DNA of 64,000 bases from Acidobacteriota bacterium (lineage in GTDB: Bacteria > Acidobacteriota > Vicinamibacteria > Vicinamibacterales > Vicinamibacteraceae): contig JADLFL010000008.1 of the NCBI GenBank assembly GCA_020845575.1, forward strand, positions 1 through 64,000, in the 5' to 3' direction. Below, piece after piece: positions 14,166-64,000 of the stretch (position 1 is the first letter of the stretch; every line of letters begins with the position of its first letter). Position numbers and translations under genes: made by a program. The notes below the pieces were generated by a model. That model ran no database searches, had not been told where the DNA came from, and was given only the letters and a program-made list of their open reading frames with translations.

Positions 14166-15194
14166 ATGCGCGCTCCCTCCTCACCTCTTCTCTTCGCTCT
14201 GGCCCTCGCCTGTGCCGTCGGTGGACTGCATCTGAGTCGTGTCGACGCGACGACGAGCGCCGTACAGGCCACGGGGACGTACGTGATCGCCCACCGTGGT
14301 GCCTCCGCTTACGCGCCAGAGCATACAGCCGCCGCGTACAGCTTGGCTATCCAACAGGGCGCCGACTACGTCGAACCGGACATCGCCCTGACCAGGGACG
14401 GCGTCTTTGTCAGCTCGCACGACGGCAGTCTCGATCGCACATCCGACGTCAAGGAGCGCTTCCCCGACCGCTTCACGGAAGTGAAGACCGGCGATCGCGT
14501 GCAGCGGCGCTGGCTCGTGGAGGACTTCACGCTCGCCGAGATCAAGTCGCTCGACGCCGGTTCGTGGTTCGACCCGAAGTTCAAGGGCGAGAAGATGATG
14601 ACCCTCCAGGAGACGATCGATCTCGTGAAGGGCAAGGCGGGCCTGTTCCCGGAACTGAAGGTGCCTGGACGCCTGCGCGCGAAGGGCTTCGACCCCGAGC
14701 AGACGGTGGCCGACATCCTGCGCAAGAACGGGCTCGTGGGCGCGATGGTCAAGGGCCGCCCCGCCGTCCACATGCAGGTCTTCGAGGAGGACAGCGTGCG
14801 GCGGCTCGCGAAGCTCCTGCCCGAGGTACCACGCAGCTTCCTGCTCTCGGCCGCTCCAGGTACCGCGCGATGGCTCACGCCCGAGGGGCTCGCCGAGGTG
14901 AAGACGTTCGCCACGGGCATCGCACCGGCCTACCAGATCATCGACCGCGATCCCGACGTCGTGGTGCGGGCGCACGCCGCGGGGCTCACCGTCGTGCCGT
15001 ACACGTTCATCCTGCGGCCGGCGACGACACCCAGCTATCCCGACGCGCCGCCCGCCGTGCGCCAGCAACTCGAGGCGCAGCTCCAGTCGCTGCCGACCAC
15101 GCGCGAGGCCCTCACCGCGCAGATGCGCAAGTTCGTCGAGGTGTACAAGGTGGACGGGATGTTCACCGACTACCCCGACCTGTTCCCCCGCTGA
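14166..15194 (+). CDS. Secreted glycerophosphodiester phosphodiesterase
   Basis: A 342-residue protein with a signal peptide (LLFALALACAVGGL). GDPD motifs are AHRGASAYAPEHT (His about 43), YVEPDIALTRDG with the metal-binding E and D, SSHDGSLDRTSD with the catalytic His, and PELKVPG. The enzyme cleaves glycerophosphodiesters to glycerol-3-phosphate plus an alcohol, using Ca2+ or Mg2+ in the periplasm. ATG 14166 is preferred over GTG 14160; TAAGCT ends six bases before it, suggesting a leaderless start. It is divergent from the TonB receptor across a 169-bp gap. The DUF2218 gene follows five bases later. Confidence 0.9.
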   Translation: MRAPSSPLLFALALACAVGGLHLSRVDATTSAVQATGTYVIAHRGASAYAPEHTAAAYSLAIQQGADYVEPDIALTRDGVFVSSHDGSLDRTSDVKERFPDRFTEVKTGDRVQRRWLVEDFTLAEIKSLDAGSWFDPKFKGEKMMTLQETIDLVKGKAGLFPELKVPGRLRAKGFDPEQTVADILRKNGLVGAMVKGRPAVHMQVFEEDSVRRLAKLLPEVPRSFLLSAAPGTARWLTPEGLAEVKTFATGIAPAYQIIDRDPDVVVRAHAAGLTVVPYTFILRPATTPSYPDAPPAVRQQLEAQLQSLPTTREALTAQMRKFVEVYKVDGMFTDYPDLFPR

Positions 15195-15199
15195 ACGTC

Positions 15200-15496
15200 A
15201 TGGCCGCGACACGCACGACCCTCCCCACACGCACCGCGAGCCGGTACATCACGCGCCTCTGCGCGCACTGGCGCCACAAGTTCGCCGTGCAGGGCGACGA
15301 CACGCAGGCGCTCATCCCGTTCGGCATCGACAACGGCAACGCCACGTGCCGCCTCGTGGCCGGCGACACGGGCCTGGCCGTCACCGTCGACGCCCCGGAA
15401 TCCGATCTCGATCGCTGGGAGGGCGTCCTGCTCCGCCACCTCCAGCGATTCGCGCCGCGAGGCGAGGACCTGCGCCTGGAGTGGACCCGCGGCTGA
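15200..15496 (+). CDS. DUF2218 domain protein
   Basis: A small 98-residue cytosolic protein with the DUF2218 pattern: ASRYITRLCAHWRHKFAV, then IPFGIDNG, a short beta region and a C-terminal LLRHLQRFAPRGEDLRLEW. In other bacteria this family often lies beside iron-siderophore or metal genes; its biochemical role is unknown. ATG 15200 follows the phosphodiesterase stop by five bases, so the two are probably co-transcribed. Confidence 0.85.
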   Translation: MAATRTTLPTRTASRYITRLCAHWRHKFAVQGDDTQALIPFGIDNGNATCRLVAGDTGLAVTVDAPESDLDRWEGVLLRHLQRFAPRGEDLRLEWTRG

Positions 15497-15507
15497 CGTC
15501 GACAACA

Positions 15508-15531
15508 GGGTCGGGCTCGGAGAGCCGACCC
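15508..15531. repeat. Palindromic intergenic element, copy 2 (core CGGGCTCGGAGAGCC)
   Basis: A hairpin in the 176-bp gap after the DUF2218 gene, with a one-base bulge relative to copy 1. The sequence AAGGTAGGGCCGGC lies 15 bases further on and also flanks copy 3. Confidence 0.7.
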
Positions 15532-15564
15532 CACCACCGCGCGACGCCAAGGTAGGGCCGGCCC

Positions 15565-15604
15565 GCCGCCTTTCGGCAGGCTCGAGGCGACCTGAGCGGA
15601 GTCC
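15565..15604. repeat. Dispersed intergenic repeat, copy 2
   Basis: The reverse complement of this stretch contains CTCCGCTCAGGTCG and GAGCCTGCC, the same blocks in the same order as at 6291-6330. It sits beside palindromic element copy 2. Confidence 0.55.
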
Positions 15605-15672
15605 AAGGTCGGGCCCGGCCGCACACCGCCTCATCGATTGACGCGGGGGGGATGCTCCCCTAGCCTTGCTCG

Positions 15673-17577
15673 GTGCGACGACCTGCCGGATTCGCGTTCT
15701 CCCTGCATGCGTGGATGGCTGTCACTGGCGTGGTGGCGGCCACGGCGCTGACGTTCGCGCAGCCGGAGTCTCCCTCACTCAGGAACGGTACGAAGCGATT
15801 CGCCATGCGCGTCGTGACAGCGGGCCTCGCGGATCCGTGGGAAGTGGCCTGGGGGCCCGACGGGATGCTGTGGGTGACCGAACGTCCGGCGCTGCGCATC
15901 ACGCGCGTGGATCCAACGACGGGCGCGCACCACGTCGCGGCCACGCTCGACGGCACCGCCACGGCCGCCGGCTCCGGCGGCGTGCTGGGCATGGCGCTCC
16001 ATCCACAACTGCTCCGCCACACCGGACACGACGAGGTGTACGTCGCCGTCACGTACATCGACATGGCTCGGCCTGCCGACCTGCGATTCAGCGATCCGGC
16101 GAGCCCGTTCCGCCACCTGTATTCGAAGGTGGTGCGACTGCGCTACGACGCGGCCACGGCCACGCTCGTCGATCCGGTCACGATTCTCGACGGCCTGCCG
16201 GCCGGCAACGACCACTACGGCATGCGCCTCGCGTTCGGTCCCGATGGCACGCTCCATCTCACGACCGGCGACCAGGGCGGCAACCAGCTCGGGAACTACT
16301 GCCACCCGATCTACTCGCAGCAACTGCCGACGCAGGCCGAGGTCGACGCGCGCGACTGGTCCGCCTACGAAGGCAAGACGCTGCGCCTCACCACAGACGG
16401 CGGCATCCCCGCGGACAACCCCGTCATCGGCGGCGTGCGCAGTCACGTGTACACGTACGGCCACCGCAATCCGCAGGGCATCACGATGGGTGTCGACGGC
16501 ACGATGTACACCTCGGACCACGGACCCAAGTCCGACGATGAGGTGAACGTGCTGGTGCCGGGCGGCAACTACGGCTGGCCGCACGTGGCGGGCTATCGCG
16601 ACGACAGCGCGTACGAATACGCGCGCTGGGGCGACTCGACGACGCCGTGCGCCAGCCTGCGCTTCAGCGATCTCGCCATTCCGTCGTCGGTGCCGCGCGC
16701 GCCCGAGTCGGCGTTCACGCCGCCCATGGTGGCGCCGCTCGCAACGCTGTTCACGGTACCCACCGGCCACGACTTCGAGGACCCGGCGTGCGGCGGCGTG
16801 CACTATCTCTGCTGGCCGACGGTCGCTGCGGCGAGCGTCGAAGCGTACGCACACCACGACGGCATCCCGGGATGGGACCGCGTGCTCATCGTGTCGGCCC
16901 TGAAGCGCGGCTCGCTCTACGTCGTGCCGCTCGACGCGTCCGGCCAGCGCGCGGTCGGGCCCGTCACGCGCGAAGCCCGCACGCGGAATCGCTATCGGGA
17001 TACGGCGGTGCATCCAGACGGACGGACGATCTTCGTCGCGACGACGAGCGGCGGGCTCGTCGAGTCACTCACCGACCTTCAAGTTGCCAAGACCCGCGAC
17101 AACGACGGCTCCATTCTCGCGTTCACATACGAGGGCGAAGCCGCCGGCACGAGCGCACCGGCCGTTGCCACCACCACAACGGCACGTCCCCCATCGTCTG
17201 CACGTCGCGTCGAACCGCCCCCCGCGCCGCGCGCGGCGCCGCGCGGACCGTCGCCGCCGTTCAGTGCCGCGCAGGTGGTCGCCGGCAAGGCGGCGTACGA
17301 CACGTCGTGCGCGGTGTGTCACGGCGCATCGCTCTCGAACGGGACGTTCGGCACGCCGCTGGCCGGCGAGTATTTCAGGCGTCAGTGGAGCGGACGCCCC
17401 GTGGCGGATCTGTTCGAGAAGGCGCACGGCACGATGCCGCCCGCCGCCATCGGATCGCTGCCGGCGGAGACCTACGCCGCGATCCTGGCGTACGTGCTGG
17501 AGGTCAACGGCAGCACGCCTGGCGCGACGGACCTACCCGCAGACATCACACGCCTCCGCACCTGGCGCGTCCCGTGA
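15673..17577 (+). CDS. PQQ-dependent sugar dehydrogenase with C-terminal cytochrome c domain
   Basis: A 634-residue secreted protein. Residues about 45-480 form a six-bladed propeller of the soluble aldose/glucose dehydrogenase type (PWEVAWGPDGMLWVTER, YGMRLAFGPDGTLHLTTGD, YGHRNPQGITMG, GGNYGWPHVAGY). After a Pro/Ala-rich linker, residues about 535-620 form a class I cytochrome c with CAVCH and a downstream MPP methionine. Such fusions pass electrons from periplasmic sugar oxidation straight to a c-type haem. GTG 15673 is six bases after TAGCCT; it is followed by a hydrophobic signal ending TFAQ. PQQ biosynthesis genes are not in the window. Confidence 0.88.
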   Translation: MRRPAGFAFSLHAWMAVTGVVAATALTFAQPESPSLRNGTKRFAMRVVTAGLADPWEVAWGPDGMLWVTERPALRITRVDPTTGAHHVAATLDGTATAAGSGGVLGMALHPQLLRHTGHDEVYVAVTYIDMARPADLRFSDPASPFRHLYSKVVRLRYDAATATLVDPVTILDGLPAGNDHYGMRLAFGPDGTLHLTTGDQGGNQLGNYCHPIYSQQLPTQAEVDARDWSAYEGKTLRLTTDGGIPADNPVIGGVRSHVYTYGHRNPQGITMGVDGTMYTSDHGPKSDDEVNVLVPGGNYGWPHVAGYRDDSAYEYARWGDSTTPCASLRFSDLAIPSSVPRAPESAFTPPMVAPLATLFTVPTGHDFEDPACGGVHYLCWPTVAAASVEAYAHHDGIPGWDRVLIVSALKRGSLYVVPLDASGQRAVGPVTREARTRNRYRDTAVHPDGRTIFVATTSGGLVESLTDLQVAKTRDNDGSILAFTYEGEAAGTSAPAVATTTTARPPSSARRVEPPPAPRAAPRGPSPPFSAAQVVAGKAAYDTSCAVCHGASLSNGTFGTPLAGEYFRRQWSGRPVADLFEKAHGTMPPAAIGSLPAETYAAILAYVLEVNGSTPGATDLPADITRLRTWRVP

Positions 17578-56630: not shown

Positions 56631-58784
56631 ATGCGCATCACGACACGTACCCTGACGAGACTCGCCTGTTCGACCATCACCGTAGCCATCGCCGGCTTCA
56701 CGCTCCTGGGTGGAAGCACCTCCGCTCAGGAGCGCGAGGACCGGACGCTGCTGCCGTGGGACCAGCTGCGGGCCATCATCAACGAAGCCTCGGGCGAGCG
56801 CGCCATGCACCACGTGCTGGAGCTGGTGCCCTACCCGCGCATCCGCTCGCGGGCCGAATACGAAGGACACTTCCGCGAGAACGAGGTCATCGCGCGCTTC
56901 GCCACCGAGTACGGGTTCGACGATGTGAAGGTCGAGTCGTTCCCGACCGCGCAGCGCTCGTGGCAAGGTTGGCAGGGCGAGCTGTGGATCACCGCACCCG
57001 AGACCCGGAAGCTGTACGACATCCACGACGTGGCCATCTCGCTCGCGCCCAACAGCGAGAACGGCGACGTCACAGCAGAGGTCGTCGACGTGGGAGTCGG
57101 CGAACGTCCAGAGGACTACGCCCACAAGGACGTGAAGGGCAAGGTGGTCCTGGGGTCGGCCACGGCCACCACGCTCCAGCGGCTCGCCGTGTTCGAGCGC
57201 GGCGCCGTGGGCGTCATCAGCTGGAACGCGCTGCGTCCGGAGTCCTACCCCGATGCCATCCTCTCGGCGAGCATCGGCGGCAACGCACCGCAGGGGCGGA
57301 CGCCCGGCTTCGGCTGGATCGTCTCGCCGCGCGTGGGACGCGAACTGGCCGACACGCTCGGCAAGGGACAGTCGCTCACGGTCCGATCGATCGTCCGCGC
57401 CGAGACGTTCCCGGGCGAGCTCGAGACCGTCCACGCCACTATCAAGGGCGACGGCAGCACGGACCAGGCGGTCGTCATCTCGGCGCACCTGCACGAGGGC
57501 TACATCAAGCAGGGCGCCAACGACGATGCGTCGGGATCCGGGCTGATCCTCGAGATGGGCCGGACGTATATCCGGCTGATCAAGGAGGGCAAGCTGCCTC
57601 GGCCGCGGCGCACCGTCCACTTCCTGTGGGTGCCGGAGATCAGCGGCACGAACGCGTGGCTCGACGCCCATCCGGAAGTGGCCAGAACGCTCATCGCCGA
57701 TCTGAACTTCGACATGGAAGGCCTCGGCCTCGCGCGGAGCGGGAGCCGCTGGGTGCTGCACCGCACGCCCGACACGTTCCCGACGTACCTGAACGACGTC
57801 GGCCAGAGTGTCATGGAGTGGGTCGCCGCCATCAACCAGGAACGCGTGCGCTTCCGCGACAACGGCTACCGCTTCACGCTGCCGATCCTCTCGCCCAACG
57901 GCAGCCAGGATCCCTTCTACATCAGCGTGGAGAAGCACTATGGGTCGAGCGACCACGTCGTCTACATGCAGCGGGGCGTGCCCGCGCTCATGTTCATCAC
58001 ATGGCCCGACATGTGGTACCACTCGTCGCAGGACACGCCAGACAAGCTCGACCCGACGCAGTTCCGTCGGGCCGCCGTCGTGGGGACCGCCTCGCTGTCG
58101 CTGCTCGCGTCGGCAGGCGACGCCACTGCGATCAAGGTCGCGGGTGAATCACTCGCGCGCGGCACCGAGCGCCTCGGCACCGCCGAACGCAAGGGGCTCG
58201 GGTATCTCGCCGACGCCACCGACGCGGCCTCGCTCCCCATTGCGTACGCGGAGGCGAAGAACGCCGTCGCGCATCAGCAGGGCGTGGAGCGCGCGGTCCT
58301 GGCGTCGGTGAAGGACCTCTTCGCCGATGCGACAGGAGGCACACGATCGCTGGCGACGCTCCTGCCGCTGGTGGATGGCCGTGCCGCGGCACTGCAGGCC
58401 GACATCACGGCGTATCACGCGCTGCGCGCGCAGCAACTCGGCGTGACGCCCGTCGAGCCCACACGCACGGCCGCCGAGGTCGAAGCGTCCCGCATCGTCG
58501 CGGCGCGCGTGCCGGGTGGCCGGATGCTGGGACGGCGCGGACGCAACCAGCCGCTGCTCGACAGCCTGCCGCCTGCCGACCGCGCGCTCGTGGCGTCGGT
58601 GGAGACGAAGCTGCCGCAGCACATGCGCGCGGAGCTCGACCTCCTGTTGCAGAAGGGCGACCGGACGGTCCTGCAGATCCGCGATTTCCTCGCGGGTGAG
58701 TTCGATCCGCTGCCGGCCGATGATCTCCTCGCCTACCTCCGTGCGATGGAGCGGATCGGCGGCGTCACGTTGACCGCGAAATAG
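56631..58784 (+). CDS. Secreted M28-like peptidase with long C-terminal extension
   Basis: A 717-residue protein with a signal peptide (TITVAIAGFTLLGG, then SAQ). A PA domain (about 110-250) precedes the peptidase domain: VISAHLHEGYIKQGANDDAS, VPEISGTNAWLDAH, NFDMEGLG and YGSSDHVVYMQRG with the late His. The first zinc His is in SAHLHEG rather than the usual HxD, so the metal site is altered, as in DUF4910-like relatives. About 200 residues after the core are helical and include VPGGRMLGRRGRN. Its tandem position with another M28 enzyme suggests shared regulation. The frame continues 21 codons past the TAG stop to a second TAG, probably by chance. Confidence 0.85.
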   Translation: MRITTRTLTRLACSTITVAIAGFTLLGGSTSAQEREDRTLLPWDQLRAIINEASGERAMHHVLELVPYPRIRSRAEYEGHFRENEVIARFATEYGFDDVKVESFPTAQRSWQGWQGELWITAPETRKLYDIHDVAISLAPNSENGDVTAEVVDVGVGERPEDYAHKDVKGKVVLGSATATTLQRLAVFERGAVGVISWNALRPESYPDAILSASIGGNAPQGRTPGFGWIVSPRVGRELADTLGKGQSLTVRSIVRAETFPGELETVHATIKGDGSTDQAVVISAHLHEGYIKQGANDDASGSGLILEMGRTYIRLIKEGKLPRPRRTVHFLWVPEISGTNAWLDAHPEVARTLIADLNFDMEGLGLARSGSRWVLHRTPDTFPTYLNDVGQSVMEWVAAINQERVRFRDNGYRFTLPILSPNGSQDPFYISVEKHYGSSDHVVYMQRGVPALMFITWPDMWYHSSQDTPDKLDPTQFRRAAVVGTASLSLLASAGDATAIKVAGESLARGTERLGTAERKGLGYLADATDAASLPIAYAEAKNAVAHQQGVERAVLASVKDLFADATGGTRSLATLLPLVDGRAAALQADITAYHALRAQQLGVTPVEPTRTAAEVEASRIVAARVPGGRMLGRRGRNQPLLDSLPPADRALVASVETKLPQHMRAELDLLLQKGDRTVLQIRDFLAGEFDPLPADDLLAYLRAMERIGGVTLTAK

Positions 58785-59053: not shown

Positions 59054-61393
59054 TCATGGCGTGACGCCTCCCGGTGTGGATGGCTCGTCGCGCGTGGACT
59101 CCGAGCTCATGGCTTCCCGAAGCAGAAAGGCGCGCGCCAGCAGGTCGCGCAACTCGGGGTCACCAACGAGCAGCGAGTGCAGGCGTTCGGCGGGCACGCG
59201 CAGCACCTCGCCCGCGCGAATGACGATGACCGCCCACAGGATGCGCTGTCTGCGCTGCAGATCAGGCGCCACGAAGGAGCGTCGTGCGTGATGCACGCGA
59301 ACCACCCGCTGGGTGGTCGTACCGTCGTCGCCGATCGTCGCCACGGCCCCGGAGAGAACGACGTAGAGGGCGACCTCGGCATCGCCGGGCCGACACAGGA
59401 CATCACCGCGGTCGATGCGGCGCCGCTGCGCCACTTTCGCGATGCGCTCCAGTTGTGCGTCGGTCAACCGCGCCTGTTCGACGACGACGTTGGGCGTTTC
59501 CGCCATGTCCTCCGGCAGGTGCGTCAGCTCGTCCCGGGGATTCCAGGCGTCCACACGGGGGGGACGTGGCGGCGCTGTCTGCGCCGCTGGTGAGGCGACC
59601 GCAGACTCGCCGGAGGTCGCCAGCAACGCGGCGGCCAGCGACTGGGCGTCGTGGGCCCCGGTGTGACGCCGCCCGTTGACGAAGTAGCTGCGAGACGCAT
59701 CGACGCCGCTGGCACGAGCCGACGCGAGGTCCTCGTCGACCCTGCGCCGGTGCTGGCCTGAGCCCACCTCTCTCGCGAACCGGGGCACGTCAAGCCCCAG
59801 CGCCGTGGCGTGGTCGAGGAGATCGGCGGCGTCGAGCGGTCCTGCGTGCTGGAACAGCCGGTCGTGCATCTCCCAGAACCGGCCCTGTGCACCTGCGGCT
59901 TCGGACGCTTCGGCCGCCAGGTGCGCGTACTGCTCGGAGGGCGGGGCATGGCGAAAGACATAGCGCAGCCGGTCGCCGAATCGTTCGCTCAACTCGGCGA
60001 TGGCTCCCCAGCCCTGGAACGGTGCCCGGAAGTCACCAAAGCCAACCAGGGTGAGCGGCGCGTGCGCCGGTCCGCGGAGATGGTCACGTGCGACGTCGAC
60101 CGGCGGCTGCAGTGTCATCGATTCCGCCTGCACCTGTGGCACGCGGCGCGCCGCCAGCCACAGCAGCGAGAACCCCAGCACGCCCGCCAGCAGCGACGCC
60201 ACGAGAATCCCGACGCGCGCCTGGTCGGCGAGCGCCGGGTCGGGGATCGCGCGCCCGACGATCAGCAGCGAGATCGTGAACCCGATGCCGGTCAGAACGG
60301 CCCCACCTGCCAGTTGCAGTCTGGTCAGGCCCGGGGGAAGCTCGCCCAGCCTGAAGCCCACGGCCAGGGCGCAGCCCAGCAGGATGCCGACCGGCTTTCC
60401 CAGCACGAGCCCGGCGATGACCCCCAGCGTGACTGGGGACGCCGCGGCCGACGTCAGCGCGTCACCACCCAGCACGACGCCGGCATTCGCGACGGCGAAC
60501 AACGGGACGAAGACGTAGTCGATCCACGGCCGCCACAACGCCTGCAGTCGTTCGCCCACCGGCACCGATCGCTCGATCGACAAGCGCGCCGCGTGGGCAT
60601 GGCCGGGATGCGGGTGTTGCAGATACGTGTGGGTCAGCCGCCTGACCTCCGCGACCTCTTGCCGCCGGACCCGGTAGGCAGGCGTAATCAGCGCGATGGC
60701 CACGCCCAGCAGCGTGGCGTGGACGCCGCTCATGTACAACACGATCCACGATGCGACTGCAAGCACCAGATAGGGCGGCCCCCGCCACACGTTGACCCAC
60801 CGCAGGCCCAGCATGAGCACCACGCCCGCCGCGGCGAGCGCCAGGTATCCGAAGTGCAGGGTGTCGGTGTAGAAGATGGCGATCGCGGCCAGCGCGCCGA
60901 TATCGTCGACGACGGCGAGCGCCAGCAGAAAGACGCGCAACGGGATGGGGCAACCCCGCCCGAGGAGTGCGAGGACCCCGAGCAGGAAGGCCGTGTCGGT
61001 GGAGATCACCATGCCCCAGGCGGAGGCGGCCTCGGTGCCCCGGTTGATCAGCACATACACCAGCGCCGGCACGATCAGGCCCATGACGGCGGCCAGGATC
61101 GGCACCACCGCCCGTCGCCTGTCAGCCAATTCGCCCAGCACCAGTTCCCGCTTCACCTCCAGGCCGACGATGAAGAAGAAGAACGTCATCAGGCCGTCGT
61201 TGACCAGGTGGTGCAGACTCAGCGACAGCTCGGCACCGCCCAGGCGCACCGCGACCTCGGTGTGCCAGAACGTCGCGTAGGTGTCGCCCACGAGCGAATT
61301 CGCCCAGGCCAGGGCGGCCACGGTGCCCAGCAGCAGGAGAGCCGCAGCCATGAGCTCCGGACTCGCCAGCCTGCGCGTCATTCCTGAAACCAT
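59054..61393 (-). CDS. nhaA: NhaA Na+/H+ antiporter fused to a thioredoxin-like domain and a cNMP-binding-like domain
   Basis: A 779-residue protein from ATG 61393. Residues 1-395 are a full NhaA (FFFFIVGLEVKRELVLGEL, STDTAFLLGVLALLG, LAVVDDIGALAAIAIFYT with the DD pair, GFTISLLIVG). Residues about 425-600 form a DsbA-like domain (LTLVGFGDFRAPFQGWGAIA, AAEASEAAGAQGRFWEMHDR, SYFVNGRRHTGAHDAQSLAA), but the CxxC is replaced by APFQ and the cis-Pro region by DASRS. Residues about 650-775 resemble the CRP-like domain fused to some thioredoxin reductases (RIDRGDVLCRPGDAEVALYV, VVLSGAVATIGDDG, AGEVLRVPAERLHSLL). It exports Na+ in the inner membrane; the extra domains may sense state. Confidence 0.88.
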   Translation of the reverse strand: MVSGMTRRLASPELMAAALLLLGTVAALAWANSLVGDTYATFWHTEVAVRLGGAELSLSLHHLVNDGLMTFFFFIVGLEVKRELVLGELADRRRAVVPILAAVMGLIVPALVYVLINRGTEAASAWGMVISTDTAFLLGVLALLGRGCPIPLRVFLLALAVVDDIGALAAIAIFYTDTLHFGYLALAAAGVVLMLGLRWVNVWRGPPYLVLAVASWIVLYMSGVHATLLGVAIALITPAYRVRRQEVAEVRRLTHTYLQHPHPGHAHAARLSIERSVPVGERLQALWRPWIDYVFVPLFAVANAGVVLGGDALTSAAASPVTLGVIAGLVLGKPVGILLGCALAVGFRLGELPPGLTRLQLAGGAVLTGIGFTISLLIVGRAIPDPALADQARVGILVASLLAGVLGFSLLWLAARRVPQVQAESMTLQPPVDVARDHLRGPAHAPLTLVGFGDFRAPFQGWGAIAELSERFGDRLRYVFRHAPPSEQYAHLAAEASEAAGAQGRFWEMHDRLFQHAGPLDAADLLDHATALGLDVPRFAREVGSGQHRRRVDEDLASARASGVDASRSYFVNGRRHTGAHDAQSLAAALLATSGESAVASPAAQTAPPRPPRVDAWNPRDELTHLPEDMAETPNVVVEQARLTDAQLERIAKVAQRRRIDRGDVLCRPGDAEVALYVVLSGAVATIGDDGTTTQRVVRVHHARRSFVAPDLQRRQRILWAVIVIRAGEVLRVPAERLHSLLVGDPELRDLLARAFLLREAMSSESTRDEPSTPGGVTP

Positions 61394-61425: not shown

Positions 61426-64000
61426 TCAGTGCCGCGCCCGTGTGATGGCCTTGTTCATCTCTCTGAGCCACAGGACCGAACTGGCGACCGTTGCGCAGAA
61501 CAACCAGTCCCAACCACTCAAGGCGGTCGTGCCGAACGCGCGTTGAAGGAACGGCAGGTACACGACGCAGCACTGAAGCGCCAGAGACACGCCAAGGGCG
61601 GCCCACAGCCAGCCGTTGGTCAAGAGGTGCACGAACGCGCTCTGTTGGTCGGATCGAGCGTTCACCACGTTGACCACCTGAAAGAGCATGAGCGTCGTGA
61701 ACGCCATCGTCTGGCCGTACCGCAGATCGCCGGCACCGTCGATGAGCCCCCCGGGCATCGAGGCATCGAGGACCGTCAGCGTGCCCACGGCCATGATGAT
61801 GCCGACAAAGACGATGCCGCGCCACATGCGTGCGGTGATCACCGGCTCGCCCGCTGGACGAGGGGGCTGGTGCATCAGCCCGTCATCGGGCGGATCGACG
61901 CCCAGTGCCAGCGCCGGCAGCCCGTCGGTCACCAGGTTGATCCAGAGGATCTGCGTCGCCAGGAGCGGGAGCACGACGGCGCCAGGCGTCGTTTCCAGCC
62001 CGATCTGTTTCGCCAGCAGTACCCCGAAGAACATCGTGAGGACTTCTCCGATGTTGGAGGACAGCAGGTAGCGCAGGAACTTGCGGATGTTGGCGAAGAT
62101 GGCCCGGCCCTCTTCGACCGCCGCGACGATCGTGGCGAAGTTGTCGTCGGCCAGCACGATGTCCGCCGCTTCCTTGGACACGTCGGTGCCGGTGATACCC
62201 ATCGCGATGCCGATGTCGGCTCTCTTCAACGCGGGTGCGTCGTTGACCCCGTCACCCGTCATCGCGACCACCGCACCCGTCCGGCGGAGCGCCTCGACGA
62301 TGCGCAGCTTGTGTTCCGGGTTCACGCGCGCATACACCGAGATGTTCGCGAGACGCGGTCCGACGTCGGTCGACAGCGCGTCGAGTTCAGCGCCGGTCAT
62401 GGCGCCATCGTCGTTGGCGATGCCGAGCGCTCTCGCAATGACGGCCGCCGTGCGGGGATGGTCCCCCGTAATCATCAGGGCGCGAATGCCAGCACTCTTC
62501 GCGCGCGCGACGGCCTGCTTCGCTTCGGCGCGTGGCGGGTCGATGATGCCGATGAGGCCGGCAAAGGCCAGGTTCTGCTCGAGCCGTTCATCCGGATGCC
62601 CCTCGTGTGCCGCCAGCGCGTCCGGGGGAAGCCAGCGACCCGCGACACCCAGCGTGCGCAGGGCTTGTCCGGCGAGTGCGTCGTTGGTCTCCGCGATCTG
62701 CTGCCGGCGTTCGTGCGACAGTGCTCGCGGCGTCTCGCCGACCACCTCATGCGAGCATCGCGCCAGCAGGACGTCCGGCGCGCCCTTGGTCAGCACGAGG
62801 CCGCGATGGGGTTGGTCGGTCTCGCGGTGCAGCGTGCTCATCAGCTTTCGCTCGGAGGAGAACGGCACCTCGCCGACGCGTGGCAGGCGCTCCTCGAGTC
62901 CTTCGAGGCCGGCCTTGCGCGCGGCGACGAGCAGCGCGCCTTCCGTGGGATCCCCCTGCACCGTCCATCGTCCCTCATGCTCCTGGAGCGTCGCGTTGTT
63001 GGCGCGATCGGCGACGGCGAGGGCGCGTTCGAGCTCGACGCGAAGTGGCCCGTCCACGGGTCCACCTCCGTCGCGGCGGACGTCACCGGACGGCTCGTAG
63101 CCAGAGCCGTCGAAGGTGACGCGCCCGCTGGCGGTCACCACGACCGTCACCGTCATCTCGTTCTTCGTGAGCGTGCCCGTCTTGTCGGACGCGATGACGC
63201 TGGCCGAGCCGAGCGTCTCGACCGCCGACAGGTGGCGCACGATGGCGTTGCGCCTGGCCATGCGCTGCACGCCCATCGACAGCACCGCCGTGACGACAGC
63301 GGGCAGGCCTTCGGGTACGGCGGCCACCGCCAACGCGACGCCGAGAATGAGCACATCGAACAGGCCCGCTGCGCTTCGCACATCTTCGACGATCACGATG
63401 GTCACGATCATGATCACCGCGATCGCAACCACCACTGCGCCAAGGAGCTTTCCGGTTCGGTCGAGCTCTCGCTGCAGCGGGGTGGGGTCATCGGGCGTGT
63501 GTGTCAGCAACCCCGCGATGCGCCCCATCTCCGTGTGCATGCCGGTGGCGGTCACGACGGCCGTGCCATGACCGTAGGTCGCGGCGGTGCCGCTGAACAC
63601 CATGTTGTCGCGGTCCCCGAGTGGTACCTCGTCGGCAATCGGCGCGGGATCCTTGGTGACCGGCAGGCTCTCGCCGGTCAGCGCGGCTTCGGCCGTCTGC
63701 AGCGCGGCTGACTCGATCAGACGCGCGTCGGCGGCGATCGTGTCTCCTTCCTCGATCAGCATGAGGTCGCCTGGCACGAGGTCGGCGGCCGGGATGCTCC
63801 GGCGCGCTCCGTCTCGGATGACGGTGGCATCCGCTGCCGACATCGCCCGAAGCGCGGCCACGGCCGCCTCGGCGCGCGACTCCTGGATGTAGCCCATCGT
63901 CGCGTTCAGCAGAACGACGGCGAAGATGGCGAGCGCCTCGTACGGGAGTGCCGCATCACGCTCGTAGGCCCACAGACCCGCCGAGATCGCGGTGGCCACA
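61426..64000 (-). CDS. P-type cation ATPase (type II, Ca2+/cation-like), truncated by window edge
   Basis: At least 857 residues; the N-terminus lies beyond base 64000. The A-domain has TGESLPVTK. The ion site in M4 is VALAVAAVPEGLPAVV. The P-domain has DKTGTLTKNEM and MTGDGVNDAPALKRADIGIA; the N-domain has KGAPDVLL. M5-M6 read NIGEVLTMFFG and TQILWINLVTDGLPALALG, as in SERCA/PMA1-like bacterial pumps. It moves Ca2+ or another cation out of the cytosol using ATP. It is 32 bases upstream of the nhaA fusion on the same strand, so a joint ion-homeostasis operon is likely. Confidence 0.93.
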   Translation of the reverse strand, partial: VATAISAGLWAYERDAALPYEALAIFAVVLLNATMGYIQESRAEAAVAALRAMSAADATVIRDGARRSIPAADLVPGDLMLIEEGDTIAADARLIESAALQTAEAALTGESLPVTKDPAPIADEVPLGDRDNMVFSGTAATYGHGTAVVTATGMHTEMGRIAGLLTHTPDDPTPLQRELDRTGKLLGAVVVAIAVIMIVTIVIVEDVRSAAGLFDVLILGVALAVAAVPEGLPAVVTAVLSMGVQRMARRNAIVRHLSAVETLGSASVIASDKTGTLTKNEMTVTVVVTASGRVTFDGSGYEPSGDVRRDGGGPVDGPLRVELERALAVADRANNATLQEHEGRWTVQGDPTEGALLVAARKAGLEGLEERLPRVGEVPFSSERKLMSTLHRETDQPHRGLVLTKGAPDVLLARCSHEVVGETPRALSHERRQQIAETNDALAGQALRTLGVAGRWLPPDALAAHEGHPDERLEQNLAFAGLIGIIDPPRAEAKQAVARAKSAGIRALMITGDHPRTAAVIARALGIANDDGAMTGAELDALSTDVGPRLANISVYARVNPEHKLRIVEALRRTGAVVAMTGDGVNDAPALKRADIGIAMGITGTDVSKEAADIVLADDNFATIVAAVEEGRAIFANIRKFLRYLLSSNIGEVLTMFFGVLLAKQIGLETTPGAVVLPLLATQILWINLVTDGLPALALGVDPPDDGLMHQPPRPAGEPVITARMWRGIVFVGIIMAVGTLTVLDASMPGGLIDGAGDLRYGQTMAFTTLMLFQVVNVVNARSDQQSAFVHLLTNGWLWAALGVSLALQCCVVYLPFLQRAFGTTALSGWDWLFCATVASSVLWLREMNKAITRARH

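Follow-up and report, generated by a model that had tools for sequence, protein, structure and literature searches.

The window, a stretch of 64,000 nucleotides, carries a gene for what is rather likely an NhaA-type antiporter with a cytosolic regulatory tail, acquired from a Geodermatophilaceae family of NhaA-DsbA-CNB-Grx proteins and formerly redox-linked but now non-redox. NhaA is the textbook Na+/H+ antiporter of bacteria and is normally regulated by pH. In the window protein it is followed by a DsbA-fold domain devoid of cysteines and by a cNMP-binding-like (CNB) domain (Table 1). No description of such NhaA-DsbA-CNB architecture was found in the literature, and nothing on point was found on NhaA-thioredoxin fusions, NhaA in Geodermatophilus or CNB-thioredoxin-reductase fusions.

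The gene is an uninterrupted open reading frame on the minus strand, running from ATG at 61393 to the stop at 59054 and coding for 779 aa. NhaA, DSBA and cNMP_binding all exceed their curated Pfam cut-offs, in agreement with a previous sequence-only reading that proposed a three-part fusion of NhaA, DsbA-like and CRP-like domains. In AlphaFold models the DsbA fold and the CNB beta-roll are both complete, whether the tail is modelled alone (mean pLDDT 81.5) or within the whole protein (mean pLDDT 82.3, pTM 0.62). Metagenomes are a frequent source of such genome assemblies, and separate genes might be fused by an error of assembly or annotation. This is hardly credible here, because a 75% identical full-length homologue exists in an independent MAG (Chthoniobacterales, locus L094), 17 Geodermatophilaceae genomes, nearly all of named strains, have the same domain order, and dN/dS between the window gene and L094 is about 0.16 for both NhaA and DSBA. 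Both flanks of the fusion are native genes as well. Sequencing error is thereby dismissed as the origin of the fusion.

Table 1. Positions of the fusion gene, its domains and motifs, and its neighbours in the window
Feature	Position	Strand	Basis
NhaA - DsbA-like - CNB-like fusion gene, 779 aa	59054..61393	-	Open reading frame; full-length homologues
NhaA Na+/H+ antiporter domain, residues 11-411	60161..61363	-	Pfam, TIGR00773, residue mapping, invariant columns
DsbA-fold domain without catalytic cysteines, residues 431-592	59618..60103	-	Pfam DSBA; model compared with BdbD 3eu3
Former active site APFQ (457-460); CPFC in relatives	60014..60025	-	Alignment with relatives
Former cis-Pro loop SRS (567-569); TPT in relatives	59687..59695	-	Alignment with relatives
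CNB (cNMP-binding-like) domain, residues 640-757, Pfam core 658-742	59123..59476	-	Pfam; fold match 5h5o
Degenerate phosphate-binding cassette RRSFVAPDLQRRQRILWAV (704-722); RFLGELDLFSGQPVSLTA in Geodermatophilus	59228..59284	-	Alignment
P-type (Ca2+/cation) ATPase gene, adjacent, upstream, continuing to contig position 64257	61426..64000	-	Native neighbour, outside the fusion family
Peptidase gene, which we take to be of M28 type, adjacent, native, convergent, ~270 bp past the fusion stop	56631..58784	+	62% identical homologues in the same order

The N-terminal core matches NhaA over residues 11-411 (Pfam E 1.6e-124), scoring 416 bits with PF06965 (cut-off 23.5) and 311 bits with TIGR00773 (cut-off 254). 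Mapping onto the E. coli sequence indicates that T132, D133, D163, D164, H225, E78, R81 and E82 are retained and that K333 corresponds to E. coli K300; the ion-binding and unwound-helix positions T132, D133, D163, D164 and K300 are thus all kept. Most mapped residues are invariant or nearly so in 55 relatives. Since the ion-binding residues are kept, the transport core looks functional and would exchange Na+ and H+.

The middle domain matches DSBA (PF01323) over residues 486-590 with E 3e-6, above the cut-off. Its model superimposes on BdbD 3eu3 with Z 20.9 and 2.0 A over 169 residues (VIA-align); Z ranges from 19.7 to 21.2 for 3gyk, BdbD 3eu3 and 6eez, and Foldseek agrees with these fold matches. 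Of the hallmarks of DsbA oxidoreductases the domain has the fold, a thioredoxin fold with a helical insertion, but neither the CxxC motif, replaced by APFQ, nor the cis-Pro loop (T/V-P), replaced by SRS; the sequence-only reading had noticed both losses. The three cysteines of the protein (148, 341 and 667) all lie outside the domain, which is thus incapable of CxxC disulfide chemistry, as was also claimed. The same fold occurs in the Spx adaptor YjbH (6gho, Z 15.4), where it is known for partner binding. YjbH is a soluble protease adaptor unfused to any transporter, whereas the DsbA part of the window protein sits on NhaA.

Relatives were searched for in GTDB genomes with the full protein, in a scan based on six short peptide patterns, which may overlook divergent members. 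Among the best 20 matches, 18 loci share the three domains and their order: L094, 14 loci of Geodermatophilus and three of Blastococcus genomes. Of the remaining two, one lies in a Quadrisphaera MAG (L108) on a contig that ends just past the DsbA domain, and one encodes a two-domain protein (L112). Lower-ranked matches are NhaA-DsbA proteins with two domains, from Rhodococcus, Mycolicibacterium and Streptomyces among others. Within the Geodermatophilus order, 20 copies spanning the whole tail are distributed over 19 of 249 sampled genomes. No relatives were found in viruses, and on plasmids NhaA-DsbA was found but not the full architecture.

The Geodermatophilus and Blastococcus proteins are 46-58% identical to the window protein over the whole length. 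They differ from it in keeping CPFC, cis-Pro and, after the CNB domain, a glutaredoxin-like (Grx) fourth domain of ~80-90 residues. The two-domain (Thioredoxin_4/DSBA) antiporters, which occur in Actinobacteria and on some plasmids and are annotated simply as NhaA, share NhaA and a C-terminal DsbA domain at ~40-57% identity; they also differ by keeping CxxC and cis-Pro, and they end past DsbA. Both features are present in all these actinobacterial copies and in all two-domain proteins checked. Among the relatives checked, only the window protein and L094 have lost both, so that the cysteine-less state is represented by two proteins.

Over its entire length, the CNB-Grx tail of the Geodermatophilus fusions can be aligned to the first ~210 residues of proteins 555-690 aa in length (E to 1e-35). 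Pyr_redox_2 is present in all three of these that were scanned, and a weak, correctly placed Glutaredoxin match in two. This substantiates the likeness to thioredoxin reductases that had been suspected for the C-terminal part. One such cNMP-Grx-Pyr_redox flavoprotein (L068) belongs to a genome from the same genus as the window. These thioredoxin-reductase-like proteins are FAD/NAD reductases with no transporter, whereas the window protein retains the CNB part only. Because the tail corresponds to their N-terminal half, the fusion joined NhaA-DsbA to the leading half of a flavoprotein of the disulfide-reductase type. A degenerate fourth domain persists in L094, while the window protein stops after the CNB helix; tblastn with the L094 fourth domain as query gave no significant trace of a frameshifted remnant beyond the window stop. 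With its fourth domain absent, the window protein is a derived, truncated relative of the NhaA-DsbA-CNB-Grx family.

To place the window protein in this family, phylogenetic trees of NhaA+DsbA and of the tail were compared. In both of them the window protein and L094 are sisters (support 100/100) and group with L193, an actinobacterial copy of the Geodermatophilus type in which CPFC is intact (100/99 and 100/98). Core and tail trees alike nest the pair in the Geodermatophilaceae clade with full support, as expected of common descent. No other such fusions were found among 162 genomes from the order of the window or 213 from that of L094. Given the nested position, the absence elsewhere in their own orders and the native genes that flank the window copy, the window and L094 genes were probably acquired horizontally, out of Actinobacteria, and lost their redox residues afterwards. 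As CxxC is intact in relatives throughout the conserved four-module family, which had escaped the sequence-only reading, the cysteine loss is evidently a derived state of the transferred copy. The genome containing L193 (G618) has two fusion copies, apparently one per type. Their identities to the L098 tail are 64% and 52%, and of all relatives with CPFC the 64% copy is the nearest to the window protein.

Both trees set the Geodermatophilus-type fusions apart from those of the Blastococcus type. The history of the CNB-Grx tail needs two changes in each, and one change is allowed in 0-4% of bootstrap trees. This favours independent capture of the tail on two occasions; a single gain plus one loss also fits.

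Further, we examined the genes around the fusion. The adjoining P-type ATPase gene, which the sequence-only reading had pointed out, is 70-76% identical to genes in the window's order and does not adjoin NhaA in the three relatives checked. Being native to the host order, it is uninformative on function. It was rejected as a functional partner, having no close orthologue (<=44%) in the genome of L094 or the checked Geodermatophilaceae genomes. A conserved operon partner was likewise rejected, as the neighbours of L094 and of the checked actinobacterial loci differ from those in the window. L094 is accompanied by SnoaL-like genes, aldo/keto reductases and a weak DAC-domain protein; the gene upstream of the L094 fusion (L094:2416-3642) matches a DisA/DAC nucleotide-binding domain weakly at its C-terminus (25.6 bits, cut-off 27). 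In several Streptomyces loci (L137, L143, L144, L146, L156, L164, L166 and L169), an open reading frame of ~810-1050 aa with weak similarity to P-type ATPases precedes NhaA-DsbA, its lineage being distinct from that of the window ATPase. Outside the window on the same contig (C8; L174:11417-13325 and 15186-16001), IS-type transposase-like genes and a relaxase-like frame were recognised by eye. They are located some 5-10 kb upstream of the ATPase gene and are consistent with a mobile region near an acquired gene.

We wondered if the tail is still under selection. Between the window gene and L094, which share 82% identity in each of the NhaA and DsbA parts, Nei-Gojobori dN/dS is 0.165 for NhaA, 0.153 for DSBA and 0.47 for cNMP, values that are coarse, since they are averaged over sites and the two genes are well diverged. 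Lineage-specific replacements (window:L094, outgroup L193) number 22:22 in NhaA, 10:8 in DSBA and 19:5 in cNMP (p 0.007), meaning that the CNB part evolves about four times faster in the window than in L094. Because its dN/dS is close to that of NhaA and its rates are equal in both lineages, the cysteine-less DsbA part is as constrained as NhaA and not decaying. The window CNB domain, on the other hand, is under relaxed constraint.

These values bear on the view that the tail is a vestige, that is, that the antiporter needs no tail to function and all of the tail decays after transfer to a host without the right redox partner. Loss of the fourth domain, CxxC, cis-Pro and CNB cassette, as well as the relaxed CNB domain, would be expected from such decay. 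However, the DsbA part is not behaving as a vestige, and even the CNB value stays under 1 and within the range spanned by the compared actinobacterial pairs (0.17-0.48). We thus consider a vestigial tail unlikely. The constraint on the DsbA part is the strongest evidence for a non-redox role of its fold, although the domain could be kept for folding or stability only.

Relaxation of the CNB part argues against cyclic-nucleotide gating. The cNMP-like identity of this part passes examination by profile and by fold, the checks on which the sequence-only reading had staked it: cNMP_binding (PF00027) is matched over residues 658-742 with E 2e-7, above the cut-off, T. thermophilus CAP 4ev0 with E 9e-7, and the model superimposes on 5h5o, from a cyclic-GMP signalling pathway, with Z 14.9 and 2.2 A over 123 residues (VIA-align), Foldseek agreeing here too. 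The window cassette FVAPDLQRRQRILW aligns to FIGELGLFEEGQERSA of CRP and to FLGELDLFSGQPVSLT of Geodermatophilus. Conservation of the phosphate-binding cassette, recommended for checking by the sequence-only reading, is not seen in the window, where FVAPDL stands in place of F-G-E-L and the aligned Arg is absent. Relatives have gaps in the cassette as well: Geodermatophilus retains GEL without Arg, and Blastococcus is without Glu. The modelled cassette loop is devoid of helix and of lower confidence.

The sperm Na+/H+ exchanger SLC9C1 carries a CNB domain through which cAMP modulates it (PMC6052114), and the CNB domain of the window protein, sound by profile and fold, might similarly bind a cyclic or other nucleotide and gate NhaA. 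SLC9C1 differs in belonging to the eukaryotic SLC9 family and in having a voltage sensor, a working cAMP site and no DsbA fold; moreover, a change of one cassette Arg removes its cAMP effect (PMC6052114). Family 2B encapsulins have CNB domains with divergent sites, for which a lack of cyclic-nucleotide binding is reported (PMC12407261). The CNB fold is there inserted in a shell protein, and the NCBIfam profile encap_f2b is among the matches of the tail, far under its cut-off. Since the cassette is absent and no piece of the protein evolves faster than the CNB part, cyclic-nucleotide gating of the window protein is unlikely, and a nucleotide-gated antiporter of any kind deserves very little credence. 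The proposal of an antiporter with two regulatory modules thus holds for NhaA carrying a DsbA-fold and a CNB-fold module, both non-enzymatic, but its nucleotide gating does not.

Behind the CNB beta-roll a long C-terminal helix is modelled, and helices of this type form dimers in CRP-like proteins. Together with a fold retained without catalytic residues, it is in keeping with a purely structural tail that stabilises or dimerises the antiporter and has no sensing role. Such a tail overlaps with a regulatory one, and present evidence fits both alike; on the whole we find the purely structural role somewhat unlikely.

In the regulatory reading, which we prefer, the tail would extend from the cytosolic C-terminus, as judged from the topology of E. 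coli NhaA, and modulate the core. The ancestral actinobacterial DsbA domain with its CPFC and cis-Pro was probably redox-sensitive and linked to the flavoprotein disulfide reductase module. In the window lineage, cysteines and cis-Pro have been lost while strong purifying selection has kept the DsbA fold, which suggests that the domain probably serves as a non-redox element for docking, dimerisation or gating. The CNB part has lost its cyclic-nucleotide site, with constraint relaxed. YjbH and family 2B encapsulins are precedents for non-catalytic use of DsbA and CNB folds. Tentatively, and with some doubt, we suggest that four-module proteins are gated by cytosolic redox through DsbA and the reductase-derived module, and that the window lineage switched to a cysteine-less gate driven by a partner or by conformation.

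If true, this would represent an undescribed class of Na+/H+ antiporters with a redox-derived regulatory tail. Hosts of the Geodermatophilus type are actinobacteria of desert soil, tolerant to desiccation and radiation. Conservation of NhaA together with a redox domain and a reductase module in these organisms suggests that redox state is directly linked to the homeostasis of sodium or pH. The window gene and L094 are natural cysteine-less variants that make redox and non-redox roles of the tail comparable.

Association of DsbA domains with transporters appears to be recurrent, because the domain is found C-terminal on NhaA, N-terminal on NhaA and N-terminal on a formate/nitrite transporter. 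The reverse order on NhaA occurs in the window's own order (L039:904-2781, G088), in a protein of 625 aa whose DsbA domain has CTHC and TPTF; a Dps-like gene, recognised by eye, is located just upstream. The formate/nitrite transporter is encoded on a plasmid of Natrinema zhouii (L002:5013-6536), and its DsbA domain (CPSC) is 47% identical to the DsbA part of the window protein. Similar matches occur on further haloarchaeal plasmids.
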